NCBI RefSeq assembly: GCF_002894645.1
Contig: NZ_NCQY01000009.1
Location: forward strand, 128,433-192,432
DNA from: Salinibacter altiplanensis
GTDB lineage: Bacteria; Bacteroidota; Rhodothermia; Rhodothermales; Salinibacteraceae
Length of the DNA stretch: 64,000 bases
Reading direction: 5' to 3'
Part shown: one piece after another, positions 31,511 to 49,229 of the stretch
Position numbering within the stretch: position 1 is the stretch's first letter
How the letters are laid out: each line of letters opens with the position of its first letter
Notes under the pieces: generated by a model
Seen by the model: only the letters and a program-made list of their open reading frames with translations
Told to the model about the DNA's origin: nothing
Database searches by the model: none
Program-made: the position numbers and the translations under genes

Positions 31511-31722
31511 GGTCCCTCCAGTAAATCTGTGGGGTGAGAGTATGAGAACACAGCCCGGCGGGCCTGAAGTGAGCGGCTCCAAGCGCGTGCATGCCGGCCT
31601 GTTGACGTGTTTCTACGCTAAGTAGTTGAAGAGTGACGGTCTGTCCATTCGGGACTGGCAACGTGGACGGCGGTCGGCAAAAGGGAAGGACCGCTCAGCC
31701 CTCAGCCGCGCCTCCCAGCTCT

Positions 31723-32982: not shown

Positions 32983-33117
32983 GGCAATGTGGGGTCAATG
33001 TCAGGCTGAATCGTGATTCGTGACGCGTGACTGCGCGTGCTGCCTCACGACTCACGCACCACGCGTCTCCCATCACAGAGCAAAGGACGGCGCGGTGTGA
33101 GGAATGGATCGTGCATG

Positions 33118-33897: not shown

Positions 33898-34047
33898 GAG
33901 TACAGAAGCAGTAATTGGCGTATTCGCCGAGGCCAACCGTGAAGCGTGAGGCGCAAAACGCAAGGCGTGAGGCTCAGGCCGCACATCGCCGCTCACGTAT
34001 CACTCGCGTCACTCGTCACGCATCACACGTTCGAAAAGAGGTTGATC

Positions 34048-35469
34048 TCATTGGGCTACTTTCTGACCATTCTCGTTGAGCAGGTCCACGAACGTCTCGC
34101 TGGCCCGCCAGATGTCCCCCGCCCCCAGCATTAGGACGACATCGCCCGGCTCAGCAAGCTCTTGAAGACGACCCGGCAGGTCCGTTTTGTCCGACACGTA
34201 GTGCACGGCGCGGTGGCCAAACTGCTCGGCCCGCTCGGCCAGGCGCCCGCCGGTGACGCCCTCAATCGGGGCCTCGCGCGCCCCGTACACGTCGGTCAGC
34301 ACGAGGACGTCGGCGTTGAAGAAGGAGCGCGCGAACGCGTCCATGAAGTTCTGGGTGCGAGAGTACATGTGCGGCTGAAAGACGGCGACCACGCGGCGGT
34401 CGGGAAAGCCCTGATGCGCCGCGTCCAGGGTTGCCTCAATCTCGGTCGGGTGATGGGCGTAGTCGTCGAGCACCGTGACGCCTGCGGCTTCTCCCTTCTT
34501 CTCGAACCGGCGGCGGACGCCCGTGAAGGTGCCGAGTCCGTCGCGCACCCTTTCGAATGAAATATCGAGCTCCTGGCCCACCGCCACCGCGGCAAGCGCG
34601 TTCCGCACGTTGTGCAGGCCGGGCACGTGAAGCTCAATGGGGCCGAGGCGCTCGCCCCGCACCGCTACGTCAAACCGGGTCGTCATCTCGTCCCGTCGGA
34701 TGTTCTCGGCCCGCACCTCGGCCTGGCGCGTGGTGCCGTAGGTGACGACCCGGCGCTCCACGTCCCCCACGATGGCCTGCACGTTCGGGTCATCGAGGCA
34801 CAGGATGGCGGCCCCGAAGAACGGCACGCTGTTGGCGTACTGCGTGAAGGCGGCCTTGATGTCGTCCAGGTCCTCGTACACGTCGAGGTGATCCTCCTCG
34901 ATGCTCGTAATGACGGCCAACGACGGCGTGAGGCGCAGGAACGTGCGGTCGTATTCGTCGGCCTCAATTACGATGACGTCGCCCTCGCCCGTAATGGCGT
35001 TGGAGCCGAAGGCCGTTACCTTCCCCCCCACGATCACCGTCGGGTCAAAGCCGCCCTCCGCCACGACGAGTCCCGCCATGGAAGTCGTGGTTGTCTTGCC
35101 GTGGGTGCCGGCCACGCCAACCCCAAACTTCATCCGGATCAGCTCGCCCAGCATCTCGGCCCGCGGGATGAGCGAAATGCGGCGGCGTTCGGCCTCACGG
35201 GTTTCCGGGTTGTCGTCGGGGTCGACGGCACTGGAATACACCACCACGTCGGCCTTGCCCACCTGCTCGGCGGCGTGGCCCTCGTGGATGGTAGCCCCCT
35301 CCGCTTCGAGGCGTTCGGTCACGTCGCTACGCTCCAGGTCCGAGCCCGTCACGGTGTAGCCACGGTTGAGAAGCACCTCGGCGATGGAGCTCATGCCAAT
35401 GCCGCCGATGCCCACCATGTGGACCTGGCGGATGCGGCCCAGAGCCGGTTGCGTGCGGAGTTCAGCCAT
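34048..35469 (-). CDS. murC: UDP-N-acetylmuramate--L-alanine ligase
   Basis: 473 residues. It adds L-Ala to UDP-MurNAc. The N-terminal domain has 'HMVGIGGIGMSSIAEVL' for UDP binding, the central domain has the ATP P-loop 'GVAGTHGKTTTTSM', 'EADEYDRTFL' and 'NVRNALAAVAV', and the C-terminal domain has 'DDYAHHPTEIEATL' and 'FQPHMYSRTQ'. Cytoplasmic, first of the Mur ligases. It lies between murG and ftsQ. ATG 35469 directly precedes the conserved domain. Confidence 0.97.
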   Translation of the reverse strand: MAELRTQPALGRIRQVHMVGIGGIGMSSIAEVLLNRGYTVTGSDLERSDVTERLEAEGATIHEGHAAEQVGKADVVVYSSAVDPDDNPETREAERRRISLIPRAEMLGELIRMKFGVGVAGTHGKTTTTSMAGLVVAEGGFDPTVIVGGKVTAFGSNAITGEGDVIVIEADEYDRTFLRLTPSLAVITSIEEDHLDVYEDLDDIKAAFTQYANSVPFFGAAILCLDDPNVQAIVGDVERRVVTYGTTRQAEVRAENIRRDEMTTRFDVAVRGERLGPIELHVPGLHNVRNALAAVAVGQELDISFERVRDGLGTFTGVRRRFEKKGEAAGVTVLDDYAHHPTEIEATLDAAHQGFPDRRVVAVFQPHMYSRTQNFMDAFARSFFNADVLVLTDVYGAREAPIEGVTGGRLAERAEQFGHRAVHYVSDKTDLPGRLQELAEPGDVVLMLGAGDIWRASETFVDLLNENGQKVAQ

Positions 35470-35550
35470 CGTGTTCAGTTGGGGTCGGTTGGAGCGTCGT
35501 CTCCGAGGGGCCCGGGGCAAGGCCCGTGGGCCAGTGAGAAAGAATCTGAG

Positions 35551-36663
35551 TTAGGCTGTGCGGTAGCGATCCGCAAGGGCGAGCACGTCGCGGGCAATGG
35601 TCTCTGCGGCGTCGGGCCGGGCCCGCTCCCGAGCGGCCGTGGCCATCTGGGCCCGCCGCTCGGGGTCGCCAAGCACGTCCAGGAGCACCGTGTCCAGCCG
35701 GGCCTCGAGGTCCTCCTCGTCCAGCCGGATGGCAGCCCCGGCCTGTTCCAGGCTGCGCGCGTTCTTGGTCTGATGGTCGGCTGTCACGTTGGGCGAGGGC
35801 ACAAGCACGGCGGGCGTGCCGGTAACCGTCAGCTCGCTGCAGGTGAGCGCCCCGGCCCGGCACACCACGAGGTCGGCCGCGGCGTAGGCGTGCCCCATCT
35901 GGTCGATGTACTCGACGACGCGGAGCCGCGGGTGTGGGTCGACTTCTTCGATCAGGTCGTCGTGGTACCGGGGGCCGGTCTGCCACACCACGTGCACGTC
36001 GTCCTTGGCCAGCAAGGCATCGAGGTTGTCCTGGATCGCCCCGTTGATGGCCGCGCTGCCCAGCGACCCTCCCATTGCCAGCACCACACGCCCGTCCTTT
36101 GGAAAATCGAGGGCGGCCCGGGCCGCGGCCGGATCTGTGTTTTGCAGCGACTGGCGGGTCGGGTTGCCACTCACCACCGCGTGCTCGGCGGGCACCCAGT
36201 CTTTCGCCTCAGGAAAGGCGAGATGGGTGCGTACCGCGAGGCGCGAGAGCACCCGGTTGGTGAGGCCGGCGTAGGCGTTTTGCTCCTGTACCAGGAGGGG
36301 CCGTCCGCGGAGCCACGCCGCCATCAGCACCGGGGCGGCCACGTACCCCCCCGTGCCCACCGCGACGTGGGGCCCGATGGCCCCGACCAGGCGCCAGCTC
36401 TGCATCAGGCCCTGCGCCACACGGATCGGCAGCAGGAAGTTGGACGCCACGGCCCGGCGCTGAAGGCCCTGTGCCGTGATGGGGTGAAGGGCGTAGCCTG
36501 CCTCCGGAACCGCCCGCGCCTCGAGCCGATCCTGCGTCCCCGCAAACACGATTCGGGCGTCCGGACGGAGGGCCCGCACCGCATCGGCAATGGCAATGGC
36601 CGGGTACACGTGTCCCCCGGTGCCCCCCCCCACCATCAATATGTGTGGCGCACGTGCGCTCAT
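35551..36663 (-). CDS. murG: Undecaprenyl-PP-MurNAc-pentapeptide GlcNAc transferase
   Basis: 370 residues with a GT-B fold (GT28). It converts lipid I to lipid II on the inner face of the membrane. 'GGGTGGHVYPAIAIA' is the N-terminal glycine loop, 'GTGGYVAAPVLMAA' the second G-loop, 'GGSLGSAAIN' the UDP-GlcNAc-binding loop and 'CRAGALTCSELTVTGTPAVLVP' the C-terminal signature. Length is normal. It lies directly between ftsW and murC, as in most dcw clusters. Confidence 0.97.
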   Translation of the reverse strand: MSARAPHILMVGGGTGGHVYPAIAIADAVRALRPDARIVFAGTQDRLEARAVPEAGYALHPITAQGLQRRAVASNFLLPIRVAQGLMQSWRLVGAIGPHVAVGTGGYVAAPVLMAAWLRGRPLLVQEQNAYAGLTNRVLSRLAVRTHLAFPEAKDWVPAEHAVVSGNPTRQSLQNTDPAAARAALDFPKDGRVVLAMGGSLGSAAINGAIQDNLDALLAKDDVHVVWQTGPRYHDDLIEEVDPHPRLRVVEYIDQMGHAYAAADLVVCRAGALTCSELTVTGTPAVLVPSPNVTADHQTKNARSLEQAGAAIRLDEEDLEARLDTVLLDVLGDPERRAQMATAARERARPDAAETIARDVLALADRYRTA

Positions 36664-36724
36664 GGCAGTTCGAAAACGTCGTCAATGGGCCCGGAGGCCC
36701 GAACGAATGTTAAGATGGAGCCCC

Positions 36725-37894
36725 TCAAATCCGCTCAGCAGAGCTCGGTCCCGCGTGGCGGGAGATATTCAACAGGACTCCAATCATGATGCCGTTGGCC
36801 AGCAGCGACGTGCCGCCGTACGAGACAAACGGCATCGGGAGGCCCGTCACCGGCAACAGCCCACTGGCCACTCCGGCGTGCACGAACCCGTACGTCACGA
36901 CCAGCGTGGTGACCCCAACCGCCAGGAGAAGCCCGAGGGGGTCGGGGGCGTCCCGCGCAATGCGAAGGCACCCACGAAAGAGCAGCACGAAGAACCCGGC
37001 CAGCAGGACGAGGGCCCCGAAGATGCCGTACTCCTCCGCAATGATCGCGAAAATAAAGTCGTTGTAGGGCTCCGGAAGGAAGTCGCGCTGGACACTCTTT
37101 CCCGGTCCCACCCCGGTCAGTCCCCCGGCCGCAAACGCCATGCGGGCCTGCCGAGACTGATACTGCTCCCCCCTCGCACTCATGACCTGCTCCGTGTCGG
37201 TGTTCGGAAACAGGTTCATGCCGAGGTACGCCTCCAGGCGAGCAGCCCGGTCGGGGGAAGTCGACAGGACGCCAAACGCCAGCGCACCGCCCAGCACGAC
37301 GAGCCCTCCAATCTGGAGGAGGCTCACGCGCCCCACGAAGCTCATCAGCAGCACGCCGAGCAGCAGCATCAGGGCCGTTGAGAGGTCGTCCAGGCCAATC
37401 AGCCCCACCGTCAGCCCCACCCACACCAGCACCGGGAGGAACGTGCGGCTAAAGCTTTTCACGTAGTCCTGCTTCTTCACCAACAGCACCGCCACGTAAA
37501 AGATCAGCGCCACCCGCGCGAGCTCCGACGGCTGAAACCCGATCCCGGCAATCTGCAACCAGCGGTCGGCGCCCCCCGAGAAGAGCCCAACGACCTTCAC
37601 GGCAACCAACAGGAGCAGAGCCCCCACGAGCGCCACCCGGCTGTACCGGGCCAGCGTGCGGTAGTCGATGAGGCTCACCCCTCCCATCGCCCCCAGGGCA
37701 ATGCCCACCCGGACGAGGTGACGCAGCAGGAAGTGCACCGGCTCGGTCCCGGCCCGTACCTCTGCCAAATACGTGACGGCGCTGTACACCGCCACGACCC
37801 CGACCGCCGACAGCGCCAGCACGATCCACACCACGTACTTGTCCGCCGGCGCGCGGTCGGTGACCTTATGTCGAAGAGATTGAATAACGCTCAT
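36725..37894 (-). CDS. ftsW: Septal SEDS peptidoglycan polymerase FtsW
   Basis: 389 residues with ten predicted membrane helices. SEDS signatures include 'GADRWLQIAGIGFQPSELAR', the catalytic-type Asp in 'PEPYNDFIFAIIAEE', and 'GLPMPFVSYGGTSLLANGIMIGVLLNISRH' at the end. It polymerises lipid II glycan strands with its partner PBP, the product of ftsI in the same cluster. ATG 37894 start. A repeat-containing spacer of 130 bases separates it from murD. Confidence 0.96.
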   Translation of the reverse strand: MSVIQSLRHKVTDRAPADKYVVWIVLALSAVGVVAVYSAVTYLAEVRAGTEPVHFLLRHLVRVGIALGAMGGVSLIDYRTLARYSRVALVGALLLLVAVKVVGLFSGGADRWLQIAGIGFQPSELARVALIFYVAVLLVKKQDYVKSFSRTFLPVLVWVGLTVGLIGLDDLSTALMLLLGVLLMSFVGRVSLLQIGGLVVLGGALAFGVLSTSPDRAARLEAYLGMNLFPNTDTEQVMSARGEQYQSRQARMAFAAGGLTGVGPGKSVQRDFLPEPYNDFIFAIIAEEYGIFGALVLLAGFFVLLFRGCLRIARDAPDPLGLLLAVGVTTLVVTYGFVHAGVASGLLPVTGLPMPFVSYGGTSLLANGIMIGVLLNISRHAGPSSAERI

Positions 37895-37985
37895 GGGCAG
37901 TCGTCTACAATCGAGCGTCCCTACATGAAGGACGGAGTCGCGGGATGCGTGCGTCGTGACACGTGCCCTTCCTTCTCACACGTCA

Positions 37986-38027
37986 CGTCTCATGCATCTC
38001 TCTTCACGCATCACTCTTCACGCATCA
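37986..38027 (-). repeat. 14-bp tandem repeat starting on the murD stop codon
   Basis: Read on the minus strand, TGATGCGTGAAGAG occurs twice in tandem (38027-38014 and 38013-38000), followed by a degenerate third unit (37999-37986). The first TGA is the murD stop codon. It looks like a slippage-type tandem duplication of the gene end. Confidence 0.8.
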
Positions 38028-39407
38028 CAGCATCGTCTCCACGAGGCGGCGAAAGGTGTCGCCCCGATCCTCATAGTTCTCGTACATGTCGAAGGAGGAG
38101 CACGCCGGGCTCAGCAGCACCACGTCGGCCGGCTGCGCCGCGTGCCGGGCCTGGCGCACGGCCGCCTCCATGGTATCGGCCCGGTGGTGCACATCCGCCT
38201 CGGCTCCGAGCTCTCGAATTACCGTCTCGGCACTCTCTCCGAGCGCCACCACCGCCCGGACCTGATCGCGGACCAGCGGCTTGAGATCCGTGTAGTCGTT
38301 GCCTTTGTCCCGCCCCCCAGCAATCAGCACGATGGGCCGGTCGAAGCTCTCCAGGGCGTACCAGACGGCGTTCACGTTGGTGGCCTTCGAGTCGTTGACG
38401 TACAGCACGCCGTCGACCGTACACACCTCCTCCAGCCGATGCGGCACGCCTTCGAAGCCGGACAGGCTCTCGCGGATCACGTCGTTCTCCACCTCCATCA
38501 CACGGGCCGAGACGGCAGCCGCGAGCGAATTGTACACGTTGTGCCGCCCCCGAAGGGCAAGCTCATTTTGGGGCATAAGCGGGTCGTCCTCCTCGTCGGT
38601 TCGAAGCACGATGCGATCGTCTCGCAGACCGGCGCCGGCCGCCGGCACCTCTTGCCTCGTAATGGCCATCGGGCGGACGCCCTGCTCCGCAGCCGCCTGC
38701 TCCGCGGCGCCCCGCACGTCGCCATCGTCCCGGTTGTAGACCACCACGTCCCCCTCGCCCTGGTTGCAGAAAATGTTGTGTTTGGCCTGCGCGTAGGCCC
38801 CAAAGTCGTGGTCGTAGCGCCCCAGGTGGTCGGGCGTAATGTTGAGCACCACACTCACACGTGGGCGGAAGGTGTCCACGTGGTCGAGCTGAAAGCTGGA
38901 GACCTCCAGCACCACCACGTCCGTCGGCTCCGCGTCGAGCACACAGTCGGAAAACGGGTACCCGATGTTGCCGGCCACGATCACCTCGCGGTCTGGGGCG
39001 TCCGCAAATGCCGTTCGGAGGACGTGCCCGGTGAGGCTCGTCGTGGTCGTCTTCCCGTTGGTGCCAGTAATGGCCACGATGGGCGCATCGCAGAACCAGG
39101 ACGCCGCCTCGATCTCGGAGTACACGGCGAGCCCGGCCCGCAGCGCCCGCTGCACGATGGTCGCCTGCGTGGGGACCCCGGGGCTGAGCACGAGAAAGTC
39201 GGCGTCGAGGGCATCGGCCGTGTGCCCCCCGAACTCATACTCGATCCCGGCCGCATTGAGGGCCGCTGCGGTGCCGCCCGAGGGGGCGTCCTGCTCGGTC
39301 AGAAACACCTCGCCCCCGGCCTCGGCCAGCAGCCGCGCCACGGCACGCCCACTCCGGGCGCCGCCGACCACGGTGGCTCGCTTTGTGTGCACTTCCTCTG
39401 GGATCAT
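38025..39407 (-). CDS. murD: UDP-N-acetylmuramoyl-L-alanine--D-glutamate ligase
   Basis: 460 residues. It adds D-Glu to UDP-MurNAc-L-Ala. An N-terminal Rossmann-like UDP domain ('VVGGARSGRAVARLL') is followed by the ATP P-loop 'AITGTNGKTTTTSL', 'VLEVSSFQLDHV', the 'GRHNVYNSLAAAVSA' segment and the C-terminal 'VNDSKATNVNAVWYAL' domain. Cytoplasmic. ATG 39407 was chosen before the conserved domain; the frame stays open upstream to 39515 without similarity. It lies between mraY and ftsW. Its stop codon begins a tandem repeat. Confidence 0.96.
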   Translation of the reverse strand: MIPEEVHTKRATVVGGARSGRAVARLLAEAGGEVFLTEQDAPSGGTAAALNAAGIEYEFGGHTADALDADFLVLSPGVPTQATIVQRALRAGLAVYSEIEAASWFCDAPIVAITGTNGKTTTTSLTGHVLRTAFADAPDREVIVAGNIGYPFSDCVLDAEPTDVVVLEVSSFQLDHVDTFRPRVSVVLNITPDHLGRYDHDFGAYAQAKHNIFCNQGEGDVVVYNRDDGDVRGAAEQAAAEQGVRPMAITRQEVPAAGAGLRDDRIVLRTDEEDDPLMPQNELALRGRHNVYNSLAAAVSARVMEVENDVIRESLSGFEGVPHRLEEVCTVDGVLYVNDSKATNVNAVWYALESFDRPIVLIAGGRDKGNDYTDLKPLVRDQVRAVVALGESAETVIRELGAEADVHHRADTMEAAVRQARHAAQPADVVLLSPACSSFDMYENYEDRGDTFRRLVETML

Positions 39408-39605
39408 GAAGGAACCCGAACGTTTTTGCAGGGACGAATTTCTGAGTGCTGTTCCCTCTTCCGGGCTTGGTACGGGAGGAGGGACGCAGGAGAAAGCCTG
39501 GCGATGATCGATCACCGGTCACGCATCACGGGTCGTAGTCTGTAACGAGTCAGCGGTTCAACCGTCCAGCAGCCGAGTCTGGGGACCGGGCCCCCTCGGC
39601 CGGAA

Positions 39606-40763
39606 TCAACGGATGCGAAGGATGAGCAGAGCGGCGATCACGGTAATGGCGGTCACAATCCAAAAGCGCGTCACGATCTTCGCCTCGTGAAGGCCGAGGG
39701 CCTCGTAGTGGTGATGCAGCGGCGCCATCCGGAAGACCCGTTTCCCAGTGCCGGTGCGGCGCCGCGTGTACTTGAAGTAGCCCGTCTGCAGGATGACCGA
39801 GACGGCCTCGGCAAAGTACACGATGCCGAGCAGCGGCAGCAGCAGCTCCTTGCGCACCATGAGGACCGTGCTTCCCACCGCCCCCCCGAGCGCGAGTGCA
39901 CCGGTGTCGCCCATGAAGACCGTCGCCGGGTATCCATTGTACCAGAGAAACCCGAAACAGGCCGCCGTGACGGCCGCCATGAACACGGTCAGTTCTCCGG
40001 TGCCCGGCAGATACATTACGTTCAGAAACGTCGCAAACTCCGCATTGCCGGAGATGTACACCAGAGCGACGAGCCCGAGCGACACAAACGCCGTCACGCC
40101 CGTCGTGAGGCCGTCGAGGCCGTCGGTTAGGTTCACGGCGTTGGAGACCGCCGTTACGATAAACACGACCACCGGGAGGTAGACGACCCATCCGAGGTCG
40201 ACCCCCAGTGCCCAGAACCGGAACAGGTCATAATCGAGCACCCGATCTTTCAGAAAGGGAATGAACGTGAACGTATTGTACGCCGCAAAGTCGGGATGGA
40301 AGTACAGGACGCCCCCTACGAAAAGGCCAATCGTGACCTGTCCCGCCACCTTGTACCAGGCATTGAGGCCGTCTTTTTGCTTCTTCACCGTCTTCACGTA
40401 GTCGTCGGCAAAGCCGACCACACCGAGCCCGCCCATCGCTACGAGAGAGAGCCACACGTACGTATTGGCGACGGCCCCCCAGAGCAGCGTCGCCCCCCCC
40501 ACAGACAGCAGGATGATGATGCCGCCCATCGTGGGCGTGCCCGCTTTGTGGGCGTGGCTGATGGCCCCAGCCGCCTCGCCTTCCCGCACCTGCTCCCCCA
40601 ACTGCTGCCGCCCCAGCCACCGGATGATGCCCCGGCCCGCCCCCAGTGCGATGCCGAGTGCCGTGATGGAGGCCAGGGCCGCCCGCACAGTGATGAACCG
40701 AATCACCTGGAACCCCGGCGGGTGGTAGAGCCGCTCAATGTAATCGATGAGGTAGTAGAGCAT
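39606..40763 (-). CDS. mraY: Phospho-MurNAc-pentapeptide transferase
   Basis: 385 residues with ten predicted membrane helices. It attaches phospho-MurNAc-pentapeptide to undecaprenyl phosphate, giving lipid I. Signatures are 'KAGTPTMGGIII', the DDD/Mg2+ region 'GFADDYVKTVKKQKDGLNAWYK', 'NAVNLTDGLDGL', 'FMGDTGALALGG' and the cytoplasmic 'MAPLHHHYEALG'. In most clusters murF sits between murE and mraY; here murE is only 54 bases upstream, so murF is absent from this position. ATG 40763 start. Confidence 0.97.
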   Translation of the reverse strand: MLYYLIDYIERLYHPPGFQVIRFITVRAALASITALGIALGAGRGIIRWLGRQQLGEQVREGEAAGAISHAHKAGTPTMGGIIILLSVGGATLLWGAVANTYVWLSLVAMGGLGVVGFADDYVKTVKKQKDGLNAWYKVAGQVTIGLFVGGVLYFHPDFAAYNTFTFIPFLKDRVLDYDLFRFWALGVDLGWVVYLPVVVFIVTAVSNAVNLTDGLDGLTTGVTAFVSLGLVALVYISGNAEFATFLNVMYLPGTGELTVFMAAVTAACFGFLWYNGYPATVFMGDTGALALGGAVGSTVLMVRKELLLPLLGIVYFAEAVSVILQTGYFKYTRRRTGTGKRVFRMAPLHHHYEALGLHEAKIVTRFWIVTAITVIAALLILRIR

Positions 40764-40817
40764 TGCGTGTGAGCGTCGGGGGACACACCGAGGACGGGCC
40801 GTGCCCATCCCGACGCA

Positions 40818-42356
40818 TCACCCAAAATATTGGCGTGCCATCTCGCGATCGTCGAAGGGGCGTGTGTCCGTGCCGATGGTCTGTGTCGTCTCGTGGCCTT
40901 TGCCGGCAATCACGACCACGTCGCCCGGCCCCGCCGCATCGGCGACGGCCTGAATGGCCTCCTCCCGGTCCACAATCCAGCGCATCGATTCCGGCCGCTC
41001 CACCCCACCGCGAATGTCACGGAGGATGGTCACCGGCGCCTCGGTGCGCGGGTTGTCACTGGTTACGACGACGCGGTCGGCGAGCCGCTCGGCGATGCGG
41101 CCCATCGTCGGGCGCTTGCTCGGGTCCCGGTCCCCCCCGCAGCCAAATACGCACCAGAGCGCAGCGCCTTCGGGCATCGTGGCGCGCACAGCCTGCAGGA
41201 TGGTCTCCAGCGCGTCGGGCGTGTGGGCGTAGTCGACGATCACCGTCGTGCCATCCTCAAAACGCAACGGCTCGGAGCGACCCGGCACCGGCGGCGCTTC
41301 GGCAAGGGCGTCGGCCACGGCATCCGGCGCGTGGCCCAGGGCCGTGCCGGCCCCGTAGGCCGCCGTCAGGTTGGAGGCGTTGAAGCGCCCCGCCAGCCGG
41401 ACATCGCGCTCCCGCCCATCGAGGCGCAGCCGCAGGCCGTCGATCCGGGCCCCCAGGACGGTCGTCTCAATGTCCGCAGTCTCATCGATCGCAAAGGACA
41501 CGAGGTCAGCGTCCGTATCGGCCACCATCGCGGGGCCGTCCCCATCGTCGGCGTTGTAGAGGGCCGTCGCGTCGGCCCCAAGCCCATCAAACAGCGTTTT
41601 CTTCGCCGCGCGGTAGGCCGCCGCCGTATCGTGGTAGTCGAGGTGGTCGACCGAGAGGTTGGTGAAGATTGCCACCTCGTAGTCGAGCCCGTGCACGCGG
41701 TCTTGATCGAGGGCGTGGGACGATGCCTCCATCACACAGGCCACGCATCCGCGGTCTACCATGCGTCGCAGCCGACGGTGCAGGACCAGCGGCCCCGGCG
41801 TCGTGAGCGCCGGGGAGGTCGCCTCGTCCCCCGCCCGAACCTCGATCGTGCTGAGCAGCCCGGTGGTCGTCCCGAGGGCCTCCAGAAGATGGTGGACGAG
41901 GACGGCGACCGTGGTCTTTCCGTTGGTGCCCGTCACGCCCACGAGGCGCAGCTCGTCGGCCGGGTCGCCGTACAGGGCCGCTGCCCCCTCGGCCAGGGCC
42001 GTTCGCGTATCCGCGACGCGGGCAAACATGACCTTGGGGAAGCGCCTGCGCGCCTGCTCGGGCAGCGCCTCGCACACGACAAGACGTGCCCCGTTTTCTA
42101 CCGCCATGTCAATGAACGAGTGGCCGTCGGCGTCTACGCCGCGAATCGCGACGAAGCCATCGCCCGGCGTCACCGCCCGACTGTCGTCTGTCAGGCCGTC
42201 GAGGACAAGGGAGTCCGGGGCCGGGGCCTTCGCTCCCGCGGTCGTCCCGGCCAACAGGCCTGCCTTTTGCAACCGACGCCGCAGCGTCGGCCACGGGAGG
42301 GGGGCAGGCACCGCCTCTTCGGCGTGCTCAGTCTGTGTTGATGTAGGGCCCGGCAT
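40818..42356 (-). CDS. murE: UDP-MurNAc-tripeptide synthetase (meso-DAP-adding type)
   Basis: 512 residues. It adds the third amino acid of the stem peptide. The ATP P-loop is 'GVTGTNGKTTVAVL', with 'MEASSHALDQDRV' and the substrate signature 'SDNPRTEAP'. DNPR is the motif of meso-diaminopimelate-specific MurE, which predicts a Gram-negative type peptidoglycan. ATG 42356 lies 4 bases after the ftsI stop, so the two are translationally coupled. The stop codon lies in TGATGCGTC, like the murD stop region. Confidence 0.96.
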   Translation of the reverse strand: MPGPTSTQTEHAEEAVPAPLPWPTLRRRLQKAGLLAGTTAGAKAPAPDSLVLDGLTDDSRAVTPGDGFVAIRGVDADGHSFIDMAVENGARLVVCEALPEQARRRFPKVMFARVADTRTALAEGAAALYGDPADELRLVGVTGTNGKTTVAVLVHHLLEALGTTTGLLSTIEVRAGDEATSPALTTPGPLVLHRRLRRMVDRGCVACVMEASSHALDQDRVHGLDYEVAIFTNLSVDHLDYHDTAAAYRAAKKTLFDGLGADATALYNADDGDGPAMVADTDADLVSFAIDETADIETTVLGARIDGLRLRLDGRERDVRLAGRFNASNLTAAYGAGTALGHAPDAVADALAEAPPVPGRSEPLRFEDGTTVIVDYAHTPDALETILQAVRATMPEGAALWCVFGCGGDRDPSKRPTMGRIAERLADRVVVTSDNPRTEAPVTILRDIRGGVERPESMRWIVDREEAIQAVADAAGPGDVVVIAGKGHETTQTIGTDTRPFDDREMARQYFG

Positions 42357-42360
42357 CGGC

Positions 42361-44307
42361 TCACTCAGCGGCCGTGAGAAGAACACGAGTCGTCGGGAGG
42401 GCAGCGCCGGGACGGGGCCGCTGCTGCACCACCGTTCCCATCCCCTGAAGCTGTGGCTCGATGTCTCGCTCGCGCAGCCACGTTACTGCCCGGCGCGTGC
42501 TGAGACCAGTCAGGTCGGGCATCACGTCCGGCCGGCCCGGCGGGAGCGTGTCCGTTGGGGAGCGGGCATCAACCGACGACGCGGCCGAGACGGACGACGG
42601 CTCCGGGGTCGTCCGGGCCACGACCGTTGGGAACGTACCGGCCCATCGGCGCGCCACCCGCCGAAACACCGGCGCAGCCACCTCACCGCCATGGGGCCCG
42701 CCGGTGGGCGACCCGAGCACCACGAGCAGCGCTACCTCCGGGGCGTCGGCAGGAAAGAAGCCGACGAAGGAGGCCCGGGTCTCGTCCGCCGAATACTCGC
42801 CCTCCGCCACCTGAAGGGCCGTGCCTGTTTTTCCGGCCACGCGGAGGCCCTCGACCTGGGCGTTGGTGCCCGTTCCACGTTCCACAACGCGCTTGAAGGC
42901 GGAGCGGAGCGTATCGGCCGTCTCTTGCCGAAAGGCCCGACGGATCGTCTCCGGCTCGTTCTTCCAGAGCGTTTTGCCCGTCACGTCCCGCCGTTCGGCA
43001 ACGACGTAGGGACGCTTGATGAGTCCACCGTTCGCCAGTGCGCTGTAGGCCGTGAGCAGCTGGAGCGGCGTGACCGACACCTCGTAGCCGATGGCCATCG
43101 AGGTCTGAGTCGTCGCGCTCCACTGAGGCGTCCGCTTCAGTACCCCGCCCACCTCGCCCGGGAGGTCAACCCACGTGGGCTGGCTGAAGCCCATGTTGCG
43201 GGCGTACTGGTAGAACGTGCCCCGGTCGAGCTTCGTCACCGTCTTGGCCATGCCTACGTTGCTCGACTTCGCAATGACATCGGCAAACGAGATCGTCCCG
43301 TGCGCCTGGACGTCCTTCATCGTGTAGCCGTGGAAGACGGCCCACCCGTCGCCGGTCTCGACCGAGTCGTCGAGCGACACGAGGTCCTGCTCGATGGCCG
43401 CGGTGGCCCCGACGAGTTTAAACGTAGATCCCGGCTCGAAGCGGTCCGTAAGGGCCCGGTTGCGCCGTGCCGCGGCGGAGGCCCGGCCGGGGCGGCTGGG
43501 ATCGTAGGTGGGCACGTTGGCCAGGGCGAGAATGCCCCCGGTGCTCGGGTCCATCGCCACGGCGGTGCCCCACTCCGCCCCACTTTCCCGCACGCCGCGA
43601 CGGAGCTCATTTTCGAGGGCGGCCTGCCGCGTTAGGTCAAGGGTAAGCAGGAGGTCGTCGCCCCGCTCGGGCTGGACCACCGTCCCCCCCACGTACGCCT
43701 CGATGCGACCGCTCCGGTCTCGCCGCACGATGCGGCGCCCGGGCGTGCCCGTCAGTGTGTCGTCGTACGCCAATTCCAGCCCGGCAAGGCCGTGCCCCCC
43801 GTCCCCCACATGTCCAATCACGTGGGCCGCCGTCGTGCCGTAGTTGTAGCGCCGGCCGAACTCCGGGGTAAGAATCACACCCGGCACGTCCCACTCCTGA
43901 ATGGTCTCGTGCTGGCCCGGCGTGAGCTCCTCGCGCAGCTTCACGTACTGCGGGCTGTGCCGGTTACGCACCTGCCGCCGGTACCGGGACGCCGAAACGC
44001 CAGTCAGGGTGCCCAACTTGTCAAAGAACGTTCCCGCCTGCTTCTGAAACCCCTCCACCGTAGGGTCCACGGACAGGTCGTACCGGGCCGTGTTGGTTGC
44101 GAGGCCCCGCCCGTTCCGGTCCAGAATGGCGCCGCGCATGGCCGGAATCGTCACCGAGGAGCGGGCCTGCGCCCGCACCTGATCGCGGAGCGTGTCGGTT
44201 TCGGTCAGCACAATCTGGCCCATCTGCACCGCAATGGCCAGTGGCGCGAGGCCCAACAGCGTCAGCGCCACGTACATCCGGGCCAAAATCTGATCTTTGG
44301 GCTTCAT
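42361..44307 (-). CDS. ftsI: Division-specific penicillin-binding protein with PASTA domain
   Basis: 648 residues. One N-terminal membrane anchor (about 10-32), then the PBP dimerisation domain ('RGAILDRNGRGLATN'), then the transpeptidase domain with Ser294-x-x-Lys297 (PGSTFK), Ser-Ser-Asn at about 348-350 and Lys-Thr-Gly at 493-495. A linker and a C-terminal PASTA domain (about 590-648, 'MPDLTGLSTRRAVTWL') follow. It crosslinks septal peptidoglycan with FtsW. A PASTA tail is more common in Gram-positive PBPs but is also known in some Bacteroidota. ATG 44307 precedes the basic tail and anchor. Confidence 0.96.
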   Translation of the reverse strand: MKPKDQILARMYVALTLLGLAPLAIAVQMGQIVLTETDTLRDQVRAQARSSVTIPAMRGAILDRNGRGLATNTARYDLSVDPTVEGFQKQAGTFFDKLGTLTGVSASRYRRQVRNRHSPQYVKLREELTPGQHETIQEWDVPGVILTPEFGRRYNYGTTAAHVIGHVGDGGHGLAGLELAYDDTLTGTPGRRIVRRDRSGRIEAYVGGTVVQPERGDDLLLTLDLTRQAALENELRRGVRESGAEWGTAVAMDPSTGGILALANVPTYDPSRPGRASAAARRNRALTDRFEPGSTFKLVGATAAIEQDLVSLDDSVETGDGWAVFHGYTMKDVQAHGTISFADVIAKSSNVGMAKTVTKLDRGTFYQYARNMGFSQPTWVDLPGEVGGVLKRTPQWSATTQTSMAIGYEVSVTPLQLLTAYSALANGGLIKRPYVVAERRDVTGKTLWKNEPETIRRAFRQETADTLRSAFKRVVERGTGTNAQVEGLRVAGKTGTALQVAEGEYSADETRASFVGFFPADAPEVALLVVLGSPTGGPHGGEVAAPVFRRVARRWAGTFPTVVARTTPEPSSVSAASSVDARSPTDTLPPGRPDVMPDLTGLSTRRAVTWLRERDIEPQLQGMGTVVQQRPRPGAALPTTRVLLTAAE

Positions 44308-44371
44308 GGTGGTTGAGGATTTAAGTAGTGAATCGTGGGGGACGCCAGGACGCCCCCGTATGTCCACGCTG

Positions 44372-44401
44372 TTATTTAGTGGGCGGCTATTTGGTGGGCG
44401 G
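44372..44401 (-). repeat. 15-bp tandem duplication of the ftsL 3' end with its stop codon
   Basis: On the minus strand CCGCCCACCAAATAG (the last codons and stop of ftsL) is followed at once by CCGCCCACTAAATAA, which differs at two positions and carries a second stop in the same frame. This is a two-unit tandem repeat centred on the stop codon. Confidence 0.8.
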
Positions 44402-44878
44402 CGATTCGACGGTGATCGGCGGTCCGTACGTGACGCTTTCCTGCAGCCCGAGTGCGCGGGCCCGCTCGTAGATGACCGACGGGCCGACGCGGCGACCGAA
44501 CTCGCCCTGCAGGCGGTTGTGCTTGAGGTGCAGGCGCTGGTTTTCGGTCCGGGCCTGCTGAAGCTGGTTGTACAGGTCGGTCGTGGCGTGAACGTGTCCT
44601 ACGTAGAGGGTAAACATCCCCGCAACGGCGAGAATGAAGAGTGAAAAGCGAAGGGTCGACACGTCTTCCAGAAACGCGTCACCGGACGCGTGTCGGCGCC
44701 GATTCTGCGATGGCTCGAGATCGGTCCAGCCCGGAAGTGCCGTGCCGTGCCGCACCCAGCCGTCGGACGCCGCGCTCGAGGCCGCAGGGTCCCCCGGAGC
44801 CCCGTCTCCGCGTCCGTGCCACAGGGAGGGCCCGGTCGGGGAGCGTCCTGTACGTGAAGAGTCGTTTCGTCTGCTCAT
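44387..44878 (-). CDS. ftsL: FtsL-like divisome protein
   Basis: 163 residues. A polar, Gly/Ser/Arg-rich cytoplasmic N-terminus of about 74 residues is followed by one membrane helix (about 75-95), then a coiled-coil with heptad pattern ('LYNQLQQARTENQRLHLKHNRLQGEFG'), ending in 'ALGLQESVTYGPP'. Sequence similarity is weak, as usual for FtsL; topology and position between rsmH and ftsI identify it. Periplasmic coiled coil would pair with FtsB and bind FtsQ. ATG 44878 was chosen; the long N-tail is unusual and a shorter start is possible. Confidence 0.82.
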   Translation of the reverse strand: MSRRNDSSRTGRSPTGPSLWHGRGDGAPGDPAASSAASDGWVRHGTALPGWTDLEPSQNRRRHASGDAFLEDVSTLRFSLFILAVAGMFTLYVGHVHATTDLYNQLQQARTENQRLHLKHNRLQGEFGRRVGPSVIYERARALGLQESVTYGPPITVESPPTK

Positions 44879-44912
44879 GGTGCGGTCTCGAATCGAATGT
44901 TTGAGCGCCCCC

Positions 44913-45926
44913 TCACGAGAGCGGCGGGACCGGGCGCCCGGCCTCGTCGTCGTCCCGGCGTTCGGCCACCCGAAGGTGTGCGCTTCGCGCCCGGGGGTTG
45001 GCCTCGATCTCCGCATCGCTGGCCTCAATGGGGCCACGGGGCGTCTCGGCCCAGGGCGCTACGAGGGTGCCGTACAGGTCGCGGCGGGGCTCGCCCTCAA
45101 AATTGCCGTAGCGGAGATACCGCTTCACCCGCCGGTCTTCCAACGAGTGGTAGCTAATCACGGCGATGCGCCCCCCCGTGCGGATCTCTTTCGTCGCCTG
45201 CTCCAGCACGTCCTCCAGCTCGTCCAGCTCCGCATTTACCGCGATGCGGAGCGCCTGAAAGACGCGCGTCAGGGTCTTGACCGTGTCGGGGGGCGGCACA
45301 CAGCCTTCCACCACCGCCGCCAGGTCACGCGTCGTGTCGAGCGGACGAGCGTCGCACAGAGCCCGAGCGACACGGCCCGCCCGCGACTCCTCCCCGTACT
45401 CGCGGAGCACATCGTGCAGGTCACGCTCCCCCCAGTCGTTCACGATCTGCCGTGCAGTGAGCCCCCGTTGCGGATCCATCCGCATGTCGAGCGGGCCCTC
45501 GTCCCGAAAACTGAAGCCTCGCTCGGGCGCATCGATCTGATGAGACGAGACGCCGAGGTCAAGCAACAGCCCATCGATGGGCGCGAGGGCCTCGGCCGTC
45601 AACACGTCTCGGAGGTTTCCGAAGGTGCCGTGCACGGCCCGGAAGCGCCCCGCCTCGCGCTCATCGGCGAGGCGATCGCGGGCCGCCGCCAGGGCCTGCG
45701 GGTCCCGGTCGATGCCGAGCACAACCCCGTCGGGGCCGAGTTCATCGAGCAGGGCTCGGGCGTGCCCCCCACCGCCGAGGGTTGCATCCACGTAGCATCC
45801 GGACGGGTCCGTGACGAGCCGGGCCTGTACGTCGTGTGAAAGAACAGGGGCGTGGAAGTCGGTGGCGTACCGGAGAGGCTTTTCGTCGTCCGGTGCAGGA
45901 TCGTTCTGGGAATCGTCGGCTGACAT
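44913..45926 (-). CDS. rsmH: 16S rRNA (cytosine(1402)-N4)-methyltransferase
   Basis: 337 residues. It methylates N4 of C1402 in 16S rRNA using S-adenosylmethionine. 'HAPVLSHDV', the SAM-binding '[15 protein letters not shown]', '[13 protein letters not shown]', and the C-terminal '[16 protein letters not shown]' are hallmark motifs. It is the second gene of the dcw operon (mraW in older naming), 47 bases after mraZ. ATG 45926 precedes a short acidic lead and the conserved region. Confidence 0.96.
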
Positions 45927-45973
45927 CAGCTCTTGTCCACATCGCTGCGGGAAGTTGTCTCTACCTGTTGTCT

Positions 45974-46411
45974 CTACCTCATGACACTCTCGGCGAGCGT
46001 CTCGTAGTCGTCGGGCTGCTCGTTGAGGTATCCGTCGAACTGTTCCGGGTCCCAAATCTCAATGTGGTCGAACGCCCCCAAGATGAGCGCCGACCCGTCG
46101 AGCTCCACGAAATCGATTAGCGAGTTTGGAATGCTGATGCGCCCCTGCCCGTCGAGGGAGACCTCACTGGCCCACCGCATGATGAGGCGGACGAAGTTGC
46201 GGACCTCTCGATCGTACATGTTTAACGCATCGATCTCCTCTTCAATGTCGGTCCACTCGTCCATCGGGTAGAGAAAAATGCAATCCTCGAACCCCCGCGT
46301 GATGGTAAATGTCTCGTTCGCGGCGGGCGCCAGGGACTTCCGCATCTTGGCCGGAATGGCCACCCGCCCCTTGCTATCGACGGAATATTCGGCCTGTCCT
46401 TTGAACGCCAT
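45974..46411 (-). CDS. mraZ: Transcriptional regulator MraZ
   Basis: 145 residues with two SpoVT-AbrB-like swapped-hairpin halves, each with the family signature: '[12 protein letters not shown]' (about 11-22) and '[14 protein letters not shown]' (about 88-101). MraZ forms ring-shaped oligomers and represses its own operon by binding repeated TGGGN boxes. Such boxes lie just upstream (46488-46511), so autoregulation is likely. It is the first gene of the dcw cluster. ATG 46411 has no Shine-Dalgarno on this strand. Confidence 0.95.
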
Positions 46412-46487: not shown

Positions 46488-46511
46488 CCCCACATTTCCC
46501 CACGCGCCCCA
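46488..46511 (-). promoter_or_regulatory. MraZ-box array
   Basis: On the minus strand three direct TGGGG repeats occur at 46511-46507, 46502-46498 and 46492-46488, with spacings of 9 and 10 bases. Established MraZ operators are three or four TGGGN repeats with 10-bp periodicity downstream of the mra promoter. These sit immediately after the -10 hexamer of the candidate promoter, so MraZ binding would cover the transcription start. Confidence 0.75.
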
Positions 46512-46512
46512 C

Positions 46513-46540
46513 AATGTACGCGGTTCCCGGCCAATGTCAA
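46513..46540 (-). promoter_or_regulatory. Candidate dcw operon promoter
   Basis: A perfect TTGACA (46540-46535) and TACATT (46518-46513) are separated by 16 bases, reading toward mraZ. The predicted start lies about 7 bases further, inside the MraZ-box array, leaving a 5' UTR of roughly 95 bases. Confidence 0.6.
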
Positions 46541-46642
46541 GGCTCAGCGTCCACATACGCCGATCATCCTCCGTCTTTCTCTGGAACGAGCCACGCACAC
46601 ATGTAAAATTGCAAGCCACTTCCGTCGATTTTAGAACCTTCA

Positions 46643-46676
46643 GAAAATGTTTTCACCCCTTGAAGAAAATATTTTC
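46643..46676. promoter_or_regulatory. Paired palindromic operator candidate
   Basis: GAAAATGTTTTC (46643-46654) and GAAAATATTTTC (46665-46676) are both palindromic (the first with a G at the centre), are both followed by ACCC, and have centres 22 bp apart, about two helical turns. The arrangement suits two dimers of a winged-helix repressor on one face of DNA. The nearest candidate regulator is the LexA-like protein encoded 135 bases to the right. Confidence 0.6.
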
Positions 46677-46811
46677 ACCCTTTTTCCTTGCCCGACTGGG
46701 GCGGGTGCACATATGTTTGTGGGAACCAGGGATTGGGATGTTCGGCGACGACATTCCGCCCCTCCATCGCGCCTTCGTAGTCCAATCGCCCCCGTCCTCC
46801 ACGTCTTCCTT

Positions 46812-47462
46812 ATGGCCAAGGCCCCCCTCACCCAACGCCAGAACCAGGCGTACGATTTTATCGAGCAGTACCTCGATCGTCATCGGAAGCCCCCCACTCT
46901 GCAGGAGATTGGGGATGCCCTGGGGATCGCGTCGACAAACGGGGTCTACAAGCTTCTCCAGAAGCTTGAGGAGAAGGGCTGGATCGAGCGTGAGAAACAC
47001 AAGGCCCGAAGCATCCAGCTTGCCGAGCCGGAACGGGCTCCGCTCGGACAAGGCGGAGGCCCTCCGAATCTTCCGATCGTGAGCCGCACGCCCAGTGACC
47101 ATCCCGAGCGGCTGCGCGAGCGGCCAGCCGGAACCCTGTCCGTCGATCCCCAACTCTTGCGCGATGTCCGGACCCCCGACGATTGTCTCCTCGGGCGAGC
47201 CGGCGACGACGGGATGACCCGGACGGGCATCCAGAAGGGAGACCTCCTCCTGATCGAGGAACGGGAGTGGGACGACCTGGACAACAAGACCCTCGTGGCA
47301 GTACTCCTCGAGGACCAGTTGTTGGCGCGGGAGTTCGAGTTCGCCAACCGCAAGATTCACTTGCGGCCGGCCGCCCCCCACTACGCGAAGGAAACGTTCT
47401 CCCCGACGGAGTCCGACTACTACGTCGTCGGTCGCGTGCTGGGCCTCATCCGGACGCTGTAG
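46812..47462 (+). CDS. LexA-like repressor lacking self-cleavage residues
   Basis: 216 residues. The N-terminal winged helix-turn-helix (4-70; 'LTQRQNQAYDF', 'PPTLQEIGDALGI', 'LLQKLEEKGWIERE') is clearly LexA. The C-terminal domain follows the S24/LexA pattern (Pro/Ile strand, 'LSVDPQLL', 'GIQKGDLLLI', 'VGRVLGLIRTL'), but compared with E. coli LexA the cleaved Ala84-Gly85 is Ser95-Asp96, the nucleophile Ser119 is Gly134 and the base Lys156 is Arg173 or the adjacent Ala. RecA-stimulated self-cleavage should therefore be impossible. It may be a constitutive or otherwise controlled regulator, as for some cyanobacterial LexA proteins that lack these residues. ATG 46812 start. Confidence 0.88.
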   Translation: MAKAPLTQRQNQAYDFIEQYLDRHRKPPTLQEIGDALGIASTNGVYKLLQKLEEKGWIEREKHKARSIQLAEPERAPLGQGGGPPNLPIVSRTPSDHPERLRERPAGTLSVDPQLLRDVRTPDDCLLGRAGDDGMTRTGIQKGDLLLIEEREWDDLDNKTLVAVLLEDQLLAREFEFANRKIHLRPAAPHYAKETFSPTESDYYVVGRVLGLIRTL

Positions 47463-47534: not shown

Positions 47535-49229
47535 CTACATGTCGACCGACGCGAGGGGGACTGCCTTCCGCTCGGGCGGTTGGGGAGAGGTCGCCAGGCC
47601 CTCCTCGTGGGCGTAGGACGTGCACGCCCGCACGAACGACCGAAACAGCGGATGGGGATTCCCCACGGTGGTCCGGTACTCCGGGTGGAACTGCACGCCC
47701 AGGAACCAGCGCTTGTCGGGCAGCTCCATGATCTCGACCAGGTCCGTGTCGGGGTTCACACCGCTAAAGCACATGCCTTCCTCCAGCAGCTTGTAGCGGA
47801 GGACATTGTTGACCTCGTACCGATGCCGGTGCCGTTCCTGTACCCTCTCGGCCCCATACACCCCGTGGGCGTGAGAGTCCTCCTGAAGGCGACAGTCGTA
47901 CTGTCCGAGACGCATGGTGCCCCCTTTGTCGGAGATCTCTTTCTGCTCCTCCATGAGGTCGATCACCGGGTAGGCGGTCTCTTCGTCGAACTCGGTGGAG
48001 TGGGCCCCGTCCCATCCGCACACGTGCCGCGCAAACTCGATGATGGCGCACTGCAGGCCCAGGCAGATGCCGAAGAAGGGAACGTCCTGCTCGCGGGCAT
48101 GCTGGGCCGCGAGAATCTTGCCCTCCACCCCCCGATCCCCAAACCCGGGCGCCACGAGAATGCCCGCCACATCTCCGAGCTGCGACTCTACATTGTCCGG
48201 CGACAGGGCCTCCGAGGGCACGTACTTGACCTTCACCTGAACCTCGTCGGGCACGCCCGCAAGGATGAAGCTTTCAGTGATGGATTTGTAGGCGTCTTGG
48301 TGCTCCACATATTTTCCCACGAGGGCAATGGGAATCGTTTCCTCTGGGTTTTTCAGGCGCTTCAGAAATCCGATCCAGTTGCTCAGGTCGGGCGTGTCGC
48401 TGCATCGCCCATCGTCTCCACGCTCGGGATAGAAGCGGTCGACGACGAGCTCGCCTATGCCCTCGTCGCGGAGCAGAAGGGGCACCTCGTAGATCGACTC
48501 CGCGTCGAGCATCTGGATGACGGCCTCCTCCTCCACGTTGCAAAAGAGGGAAATCTTGCGCCGTACCTCCGCGGTGATGGACCGCTCCGACCGACAGACG
48601 ATGGTGTCCGGCTGGAGGCCGTGGGCAAGCAGCTCCTTCACGGAGTGCTGTGTGGGCTTCGTCTTCAGCTCGCCCGCCGCGCGGAGGTAGGGAATGAGCG
48701 TGAGGTGGGCGATCATGGTGTTGCGGGGCCCCAGCTCGTTGCGCAGCTGGCGGATGGCCTCCAGGTAGGGCTGGCCCTCGATGTCGCCCACGGTGCCGCC
48801 GATCTCGGTGATCACGACGTCGTAGTCTTCCGTCTCCCCCAGCTTCAACATCCAGTGCTTGATCTCGTCGATGATGTGGGGCACCACCTGCACAGTCTTG
48901 CCCAAGTACGCCCCTTCCCGCTCTTTGCTAATGACCTCCATGTACACCCGCCCGGTGGTCACGTTGTTGGCCTGGCTGGTGGGCTGGTCGAGGAAGCGCT
49001 CGTAGTGCCCCAGATCAAGGTCCGTCTCGGCACCATCGTTGGTGACGTACACCTCGCCGTGCTCGTACGGGTTCATCGTCCCCGGGTCGACGTTGATGTA
49101 AGGATCGAACTTTTGAATTGTCACGTCGAGCCCGCGGTCGGAAAGCAGGCGCCCCAGGGAGGCACTGAAGATGCCCTTGCCGAGCGAGGACGTGACGCCG
49201 CCGGTGACGAAGATGTACTTGGTTTGCAC
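47535..49229 (-). CDS. pyrG: CTP synthase
   Basis: 564 residues. It aminates UTP to CTP with glutamine and ATP. The N-terminal synthetase domain starts 'KYIFVTGGVTSSLGKGI' (P-loop) and has 'DPYINVDPGTMNP' and 'EIGGTVGDIE'. The C-terminal class I glutamine amidotransferase domain has the nucleophile Cys in 'FFGICLGLQCA' and the His-Glu pair in 'FHPEYRT'. The length is normal. It converges on the lexA-like gene with a 72-bp gap. The last 20 residues are a Pro/Ala tail without similarity. Confidence 0.98.
   Translation of the reverse strand: MQTKYIFVTGGVTSSLGKGIFSASLGRLLSDRGLDVTIQKFDPYINVDPGTMNPYEHGEVYVTNDGAETDLDLGHYERFLDQPTSQANNVTTGRVYMEVISKEREGAYLGKTVQVVPHIIDEIKHWMLKLGETEDYDVVITEIGGTVGDIEGQPYLEAIRQLRNELGPRNTMIAHLTLIPYLRAAGELKTKPTQHSVKELLAHGLQPDTIVCRSERSITAEVRRKISLFCNVEEEAVIQMLDAESIYEVPLLLRDEGIGELVVDRFYPERGDDGRCSDTPDLSNWIGFLKRLKNPEETIPIALVGKYVEHQDAYKSITESFILAGVPDEVQVKVKYVPSEALSPDNVESQLGDVAGILVAPGFGDRGVEGKILAAQHAREQDVPFFGICLGLQCAIIEFARHVCGWDGAHSTEFDEETAYPVIDLMEEQKEISDKGGTMRLGQYDCRLQEDSHAHGVYGAERVQERHRHRYEVNNVLRYKLLEEGMCFSGVNPDTDLVEIMELPDKRWFLGVQFHPEYRTTVGNPHPLFRSFVRACTSYAHEEGLATSPQPPERKAVPLASVDM

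Follow-up and report, generated by a model that had tools for sequence, protein, structure and literature searches.

The window analysed here is a 64,000-nucleotide stretch of the Salinibacter altiplanensis genome. It carries a gene for a LexA-fold regulator, which we call lexA2, that lies divergent from mraZ at the head of the dcw (cell-division and cell-wall) cluster and convergent with pyrG (Table 1). The intergenic region between lexA2 and mraZ contains two closely spaced palindromes, and a predicted promoter and a MraZ-box-like repeat lie nearer mraZ. Inside the dcw cluster, no NCBIfam match was found for two open reading frames, at 44387-45037 and 33118-33996.

Table 1. Features of the lexA2-mraZ locus, with positions counted along the window.
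Feature	Position	Strand	Basis
dcw cluster: mraZ, rsmH, FtsI-like transpeptidase, murE, mraY, murD, ftsW-like, murG, murC, ftsA, ftsZ	30191..46411	-	NCBIfam matches
mraZ	45974..46411	-	TIGR00242, 129.1 bits (cut-off 98.35)
MraZ-box-like repeat GTGGGGAAATGTGGG, upstream of mraZ	46489..46503	-	Motif scan
Predicted mraZ promoter, TTGACA-16-TACATT	46513..46540	-	Promoter scan, 10/12 matches
Palindrome 1, TCAGAAAATGTTTTCACC, mraZ-proximal candidate operator	46640..46657	.	GAAAATGTTTTC at 46643-46654
Palindrome 2, GAAGAAAATATTTTCACC, lexA2-proximal candidate operator, 22 bp from palindrome 1	46662..46679	.	GAAAATATTTTC at 46665-46676
lexA2, regulator of LexA fold that lacks the cleavage site and the Ser-Lys dyad	46812..47462	+	ORF, 216 aa; Pfam, alignments, AlphaFold model
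Ser95-Asp96 codons (replace LexA Ala84-Gly85)	47094..47099	+	phmmer and MAFFT alignments
Gly134 codon (replaces nucleophile Ser119)	47211..47213	+	Alignments, orthologue columns
Arg173 codon (replaces Lys156)	47328..47330	+	Alignments, orthologue columns
pyrG (CTP synthase), convergent neighbour of lexA2	47535..49229	-	NCBIfam match

The Pfam search assigned to LexA2 a LexA_DNA_bind domain (PF01726, 8.7e-18, 64.3 bits, cut-off 23.7), so that the winged helix is present, and a Peptidase_S24 domain (PF00717, 3.1e-10, above the cut-off), and the score against the NCBIfam lexA model TIGR00498 was 95.8 bits, below the equivalog cut-off of 110.95. The phmmer and MAFFT alignments agree that A84-G85 of E. 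coli LexA corresponds to S95-D96 of LexA2, S119 to G134, and K156 to R173, which is preceded by Ala172. LexA2 therefore has neither an Ala-Gly scissile bond nor a Ser-Lys catalytic dyad. The sequence-only reading had claimed both these substitutions and an intact winged helix, and the alignments and the Pfam match bear it out on each point. The Asp at the Gly85 position is the same change as in PDB 1jhf, titled 'LEXA G85D MUTANT', a classical uncleavable LexA allele. In the AlphaFold model (mean pLDDT 86.2, pTM 0.61), residues 5-216 are predicted to match LexA 3k2z_A (Z 16.7, rmsd 5.7, 189 aligned), and the modelled C-terminal domain matches LexA 7ocj_F (Z 15.2, rmsd 2.6, 126 aligned). LexA2 thus appears to be a new uncleavable variant of the LexA family.

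A profile built from 26 orthologues was searched against 244 genomes of the class, which gave 50 matches in 49 genomes, all of at least 149.5 bits, with the next score at 87.6. All 49 genomes belong to the order of the source organism, of which 114 genomes were searched, and the named relatives that carry lexA2 include Salinivenus, Roseithermus and Rhodothermus. Alignment with homologues, a check proposed along with the original claim, showed that Ser119 is absent from all 38 aligned orthologues (Gly in 37, Ala in one) and that Lys156 is Arg in 38/38, and the Gly85 position is Asp in 17 of the 38. Canonical paralogues keep the dyad, with Ser in 28/29 and Lys in 28/29 (L014, L016 and L080 were omitted from this set). 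Around the old active site, Arg173 is invariant, Asp132 is found in 38/38 orthologues and Asp133 in 35/38, and the canonical paralogues have Gly (29/29) followed by Gln (23/29) at the two Asp positions. In the recognition helix, Lys47 is kept in 37 of 38 orthologues.

The source genome (3.59 Mb, 99.75% complete) was also searched for a second, canonical LexA, and one was found at C29:511670-512260 that keeps all three features: the Ala-Gly bond (IISAGML), the Ser (SGQSM) and the Lys (SLKRV). Its score of 110.3 / 111.1 bits is borderline to the TIGR00498 cut-off of 110.95. One copy of recA was found in this genome. Since an intact LexA is encoded elsewhere, lexA2 is an extra paralogue. In a FastTree phylogeny of 76 sequences, the LexA2 proteins and a divergent version from the genus g13 form one clade (support 0.99), and the LexA2 proteins minus g13 are not monophyletic; of the four g13 homologues, three keep the Ser and all four have Arg for Lys156. 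A mobile origin of lexA2 was considered and rejected, as the best 10 of 18 phage records and the best 10 of 95 plasmid records were at most 30.2% identical, and all records were below 60%.

Several homologues deserve mention in their own right. The mraZ-adjacent homologue of g13 (L080, L175-L177) is evolving fast, and its sites resemble GGTGTA-N6-TACACC. In genome G016, the lexA2 gene (L069, 4891-5553; see also L180) has an in-frame TGA near the cleavage-site region, and the twin palindrome is intact; this is a pseudogene or a sequencing error. Genome G022, of the same genus, has mraZ and no strong lexA2 match. Genome G024 has two copies (L043 and L044): one is an orphan that is not near mraZ and has no palindromes, and the other is a neighbour of mraZ in which both the recognition helix and the sites have changed. 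A canonical-type paralogue (L082, G033:C5, 4601-5356) with Ser119 changed to Ala and Lys156 to Cys represents an independent loss. The LexA-like protein L234 from the planctomycete Schlesneria, with Ala for Ser119, Arg for Lys156 and no Ala-Gly, is perhaps another uncleavable LexA, and L235-L237 are similar matches. L232 (Zixiibacteriota, 30% identity) was rejected as an uncleavable relative, as it is an intact LexA. In the source genome, an open frame of 82 aa contains a short stretch that matches S24 (L076, G000:C3:455041-455169), perhaps a gene fragment.

The linkage to mraZ is conserved. In 48 of the 50 orthologues, lexA2 is divergent from mraZ at the head of the dcw cluster with 231-828 bp between them, and the two exceptions are G018, in which mraZ is on another contig, and the extra orphan copy of G024. 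Among 26 lexA2 loci, the neighbour on the mraZ side was kept in 24 and that on the pyrG side in 15. No MraZ match was obtained in 7 of 30 chosen genomes (G002, G006, G008, G014, G015, G021 and G057; 62-98% complete), and none of the seven had a strong lexA2 match.

Across relatives, the palindrome unit is GGTGAAAATATTTTCACC, that is GTGA-N8-TCAC, with the twin form GGTGA-N8-TCACC. The E. coli LexA box, CTGT-N8-ACAG, has the same half-site layout. When 18-mers were scored against GGTGAAAATATTTTCACC with a threshold for the pair of at least 26 of 36, the twin palindrome was found in 41 of the 48 lexA2-mraZ intergenic regions. The seven regions below threshold (G024b, G027, G052, G055, G098, G099 and G107) belong mostly to the most divergent orthologues and mostly have variant sites, for example GGTGTAATTTATTGCACC. 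A second set of 45 carrier regions, which overlaps the first, contained 38 that reached 26, and shuffled sequences scored as well in 0/100 cases for 37 of these and in 1/100 for one. In the mraZ upstream regions (600 bases) of genomes without lexA2, the twin palindrome was not found, since 0/18 reached 26 and the best scored 23; weak pairs (22-23 of 36) in 4 of these 18 ranked 0-5 of 100 in shuffles. This non-carrier set was drawn from 30 chosen genomes (including G018 and G028), and L195, L199 and L203 were excluded from the count because less than 250 bases were available upstream of their mraZ, which makes G005 uninformative. The g13 genomes (L080, L175-L177), in which two of the four pairs score 26, were placed in neither group because their mraZ-adjacent homologue is divergent.

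The centres of the two palindromes are 22 bp (7 regions), 31-33 bp (25), 41-43 bp (6) or 54 bp (3) apart in the 41 regions, or about 2, 3, 4 and 5 helical turns. Phase coherence in 38 carriers was 0.92 at a period of 10.5 bp and 0.90 at 11 bp, compared with 0.33-0.75 at 7, 8, 9 and 12 bp. Because spacings are shared among relatives, the independent information amounts to four classes, each near whole turns. Two dimers bound to the same side of the DNA would fit this spacing. A CACATAT/ATATGTG element also recurs on either side of the palindromes in many relatives (about 46710-46717 in the window); on the mraZ strand, ATATGTG was found in 24/45 carriers versus 2/18 non-carriers, and its complement CACATAT in 4/45 versus 6/18.

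The pair is almost confined to this locus. In the source genome, the core palindrome GAAAAYRTTTTC occurs at two places, both in the lexA2-mraZ region, and the reversed control at none. With up to two mismatches, GTGAAAAYRTTTTCAC was found at 17 sites in the nine carriers among 13 genomes of the genus, 15 of them in the lexA2-mraZ intergenic region; the four genomes of the genus without a strong lexA2 match had six sites, none of them on the contigs that carry the mraZ matches. A strict pair pattern searched in 29 genomes (16 carriers) matched 7 carriers, at one place each and always in the lexA2-mraZ region, and the control gave 0. A looser tandem pattern searched in 114 genomes matched at 14 places at mraZ/lexA2 and 17 elsewhere; as the reversed pattern itself matched at 11 places, the 17 appear to be background. 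These searches identify the twin palindrome as a lineage-specific, helically phased element. In the sets tested, the pair follows the presence of lexA2, and in L044, the sole orthologue of 38 that lacks Lys47, the palindrome sites are altered too. Judged from these sequence comparisons, LexA2 very probably binds the twin palindromes.

About 100 bp separate the palindromes from the predicted mraZ promoter, so direct steric repression is not evident there. Another promoter-like match, weaker than this one, spans 46656-46628 and overlaps palindrome 1, but few relatives have it at this site. On the lexA2 side of 41 regions, 22 -10-like hexamers fell within the six offsets 3-8 bp beyond the lexA2-proximal palindrome versus about 5 expected from the baseline (41 hexamers across the 50 offsets of 10-59). 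A weaker excess was found on the mraZ side, with 16 hexamers in six offsets versus about 7 expected (59 in 50 offsets). In the window, no -10-like hexamer was found 3-8 bp beyond the lexA2-proximal palindrome, and a lexA2 promoter read by hand, TTGCCC-18-TATGTT, starts 8 bp beyond palindrome 2 and is under the scan threshold. The clustering of hexamers favours autorepression of lexA2 in relatives, and LexA2 is likely to repress its own gene.

The same hexamers, together with the distance to the mraZ promoter, would also fit a LexA2 that regulates only itself, with the palindromes as part of the lexA2 promoter and mraZ as a bystander kept by shared intergenic DNA. However, in the draft assembly of G018, the unlinked mraZ has a pair upstream (scores 15 and 16 of 18) although no lexA2 lies beside it, and no pair was found in the 400 bases upstream of the lexA2 of that genome. 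The next long open frame upstream of this mraZ, alpha/beta-hydrolase-like by eye, reads towards mraZ. Draft assembly as it is, this arrangement favours mraZ as a real target, and the better conservation of the mraZ side than of the pyrG side also speaks against self-regulation alone, which we consider doubtful. Since the predicted promoter is distant, we infer control of mraZ from this conservation and from G018, and it seems somewhat more probable than not that LexA2 controls the dcw cluster. The mode could be repression, activation or looping.

Pure activation of mraZ and the dcw cluster from upstream palindromes, with no repression, is less plausible still. It would agree with the position of the palindromes upstream of the predicted mraZ promoter and with the hand-read lexA2 promoter of the window, which likewise starts beyond palindrome 2, but it does not account for the promoter overlap at lexA2 in relatives, and the precedent in the LexA family is repression. 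We therefore regard activation alone as unlikely.

Binding of the palindromes by another protein, such as MraZ or canonical LexA, appears very improbable. The palindromes do lie within the mraZ upstream region, and MraZ represses its own operon elsewhere, according to the available text of PMC8475190. However, TGGG-N6-TGGG repeats, which we take to be MraZ-box-like from their likeness to published MraZ boxes, lie nearer mraZ than the palindromes in 42/45 carrier regions and are found in 17/18 non-carrier regions. Because these repeats are kept with or without lexA2, the palindromes, which are missing from 18/18 non-carriers, must be something else, and we rejected them as MraZ boxes. The canonical LexA box of the order is likewise a different motif: the upstream regions of 28 lexA genes yield the direct repeat CTGTGTGGAATATATGTC. 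On the other strand this repeat resembles a LexA motif published for Balneolaeota, TTACACATATTTTWTACATA, as far as the available part of PMC7739468 describes it. A box of the CTGTGTGGAATATATGTC type at recA ranks at 2 or less of 100 shuffles in 8 of 12 upstream regions and does not in the other 4.

No canonical LexA box was found upstream of lexA2 in the window, where 46/100 shuffles scored as high, and in 4 of 13 relatives (L055, L058, L059 and L062) such a box ranked at 2 or less of 100 shuffles. SOS control of lexA2 is rejected for the window alone because of these four relatives. The sequence-only reading had held that this protein cannot be a classical SOS switch; the dyad absent from 38/38 orthologues, the separate intact LexA and the lack of a canonical box upstream of lexA2 in the window all support that view. 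Its suggestion of a link to division has become much firmer, with 48 of 50 orthologues divergent from mraZ and 41 regions having the lineage-specific twin palindrome, and control of mraZ itself is the inferred part. That LexA2 still self-cleaves through another nucleophile or is a decaying copy is hardly credible, since Cys125 kept in 36/38 orthologues and the in-frame stop of the G016 gene are outweighed by the 26 invariant columns in 26 orthologues, the conserved gene order and palindromes, and the missing Ser-Lys dyad in 38/38.

LexA2 has lost the cleavage machinery, a second, intact LexA exists in the source genome, and the linkage to mraZ is conserved. We propose that lexA2 arose by duplication of LexA, that self-cleavage was lost, and that the protein, presumably a dimeric winged-helix repressor, exchanged its SOS targets for a single locus. 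There, LexA2 would sit as two dimers on the twin palindromes of the lexA2-mraZ intergenic region, both facing the same side of the helix and probably binding cooperatively. In this position it would repress its own gene and tune expression of the mraZ/dcw operon, with no input from RecA or DNA damage. Relief might come from turnover, modification, competition with MraZ or a ligand bound where the active site used to be. This reading as a whole, a RecA-insensitive repressor duplicated from LexA and re-targeted to the lexA2/mraZ locus, is in our judgement moderately probable. Since its candidate sites lie between lexA2 and the dcw cluster, LexA2 likely controls those genes and not DNA repair, and it probably serves this one locus, at the start of the dcw cluster, as a dedicated regulator.

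Compared with the E. coli-type SOS repressor, LexA2 shares the winged helix and the S24 fold over the full length but lacks the scissile Ala-Gly, the Ser and the Lys, and differs in its half-site sequence, in a palindrome almost confined to one locus and in its co-existence with an intact LexA. Unlike an operator common to SOS genes, the putative LexA2 operator has its core palindrome at one locus, and the canonical lexA upstream regions have another motif. The Synechocystis PCC 6803 LexA, which also has the LexA fold without the Ala-Gly site and the dyad serine, works without self-cleavage; its various target genes serve several cellular processes, and phosphorylation may tune its activity, according to the available text of PMC7567884 (see also PMC13416735). 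In contrast, LexA2 is the second LexA of its genome, and sequence search points to a single target for it. The available part of PMC3998124 describes EMSA binding of B. subtilis LexA to a site upstream of a gut-metagenome mraZ homologue, so a LexA-mraZ link has precedent; that case involves an ordinary cleavable LexA and its SOS box, whereas here an uncleavable paralogue is associated with another motif. Judged by titles and abstract openings among open-licence papers that mention LexA together with mraZ, Rhodothermus or Salinibacter ruber, with the subscription literature largely outside this range, PMC3998124 is the only one that bears on LexA at mraZ. MraZ, which represses the dcw cluster as stated in the accessible text of PMC8475190, acts at the head of the same operon, but it is an unrelated protein with separate direct-repeat boxes, which occur also without LexA2. 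In the neighbouring Bacteroidetes, the non-canonical LexA proteins that the available text of PMC8565304 describes are S24-family repressors with a CI-like N-terminal domain and SOS control; LexA2 shares the S24 family and instead has a true LexA winged helix.

A wider reading, which we offer as speculative, is that the LexA duplicate took control of the dcw cluster over from the SOS repressor while losing cleavage, so that a damage checkpoint became a RecA-blind controller that reads another cue through a remodelled active site. Three hints point this way. Canonical-type LexA boxes were found upstream of mraZ in 6/18 non-carrier regions (L186, L188, L196, L182, L183 and L200) versus 6/46 carrier regions, each ranking at 6 or less of 300 shuffles, with L186, L188 and L196 from family f2; the B. 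subtilis LexA site at mraZ (PMC3998124, as available) is the second; and the Asp132, Asp133 and Arg173 residues conserved around the old active site are the third. The boxes make it possible that in some members of the order the dcw cluster is under SOS control. If the main reading is true, LexA would not be a damage sensor alone, and many members of one order would have converted a copy, which mostly stands beside a normal LexA, into a dedicated uncleavable controller at the dcw cluster. It would be a clean example of how a self-destructing switch can become a controller that acts steadily. For tests, the lexA2 system offers a defined candidate operator, genomes that have naturally lost the gene, and one genome in which it is unlinked from mraZ. 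It might reveal how a little-studied lineage sets its dcw cluster and what role the LexA C-terminal domain has after catalysis is lost.
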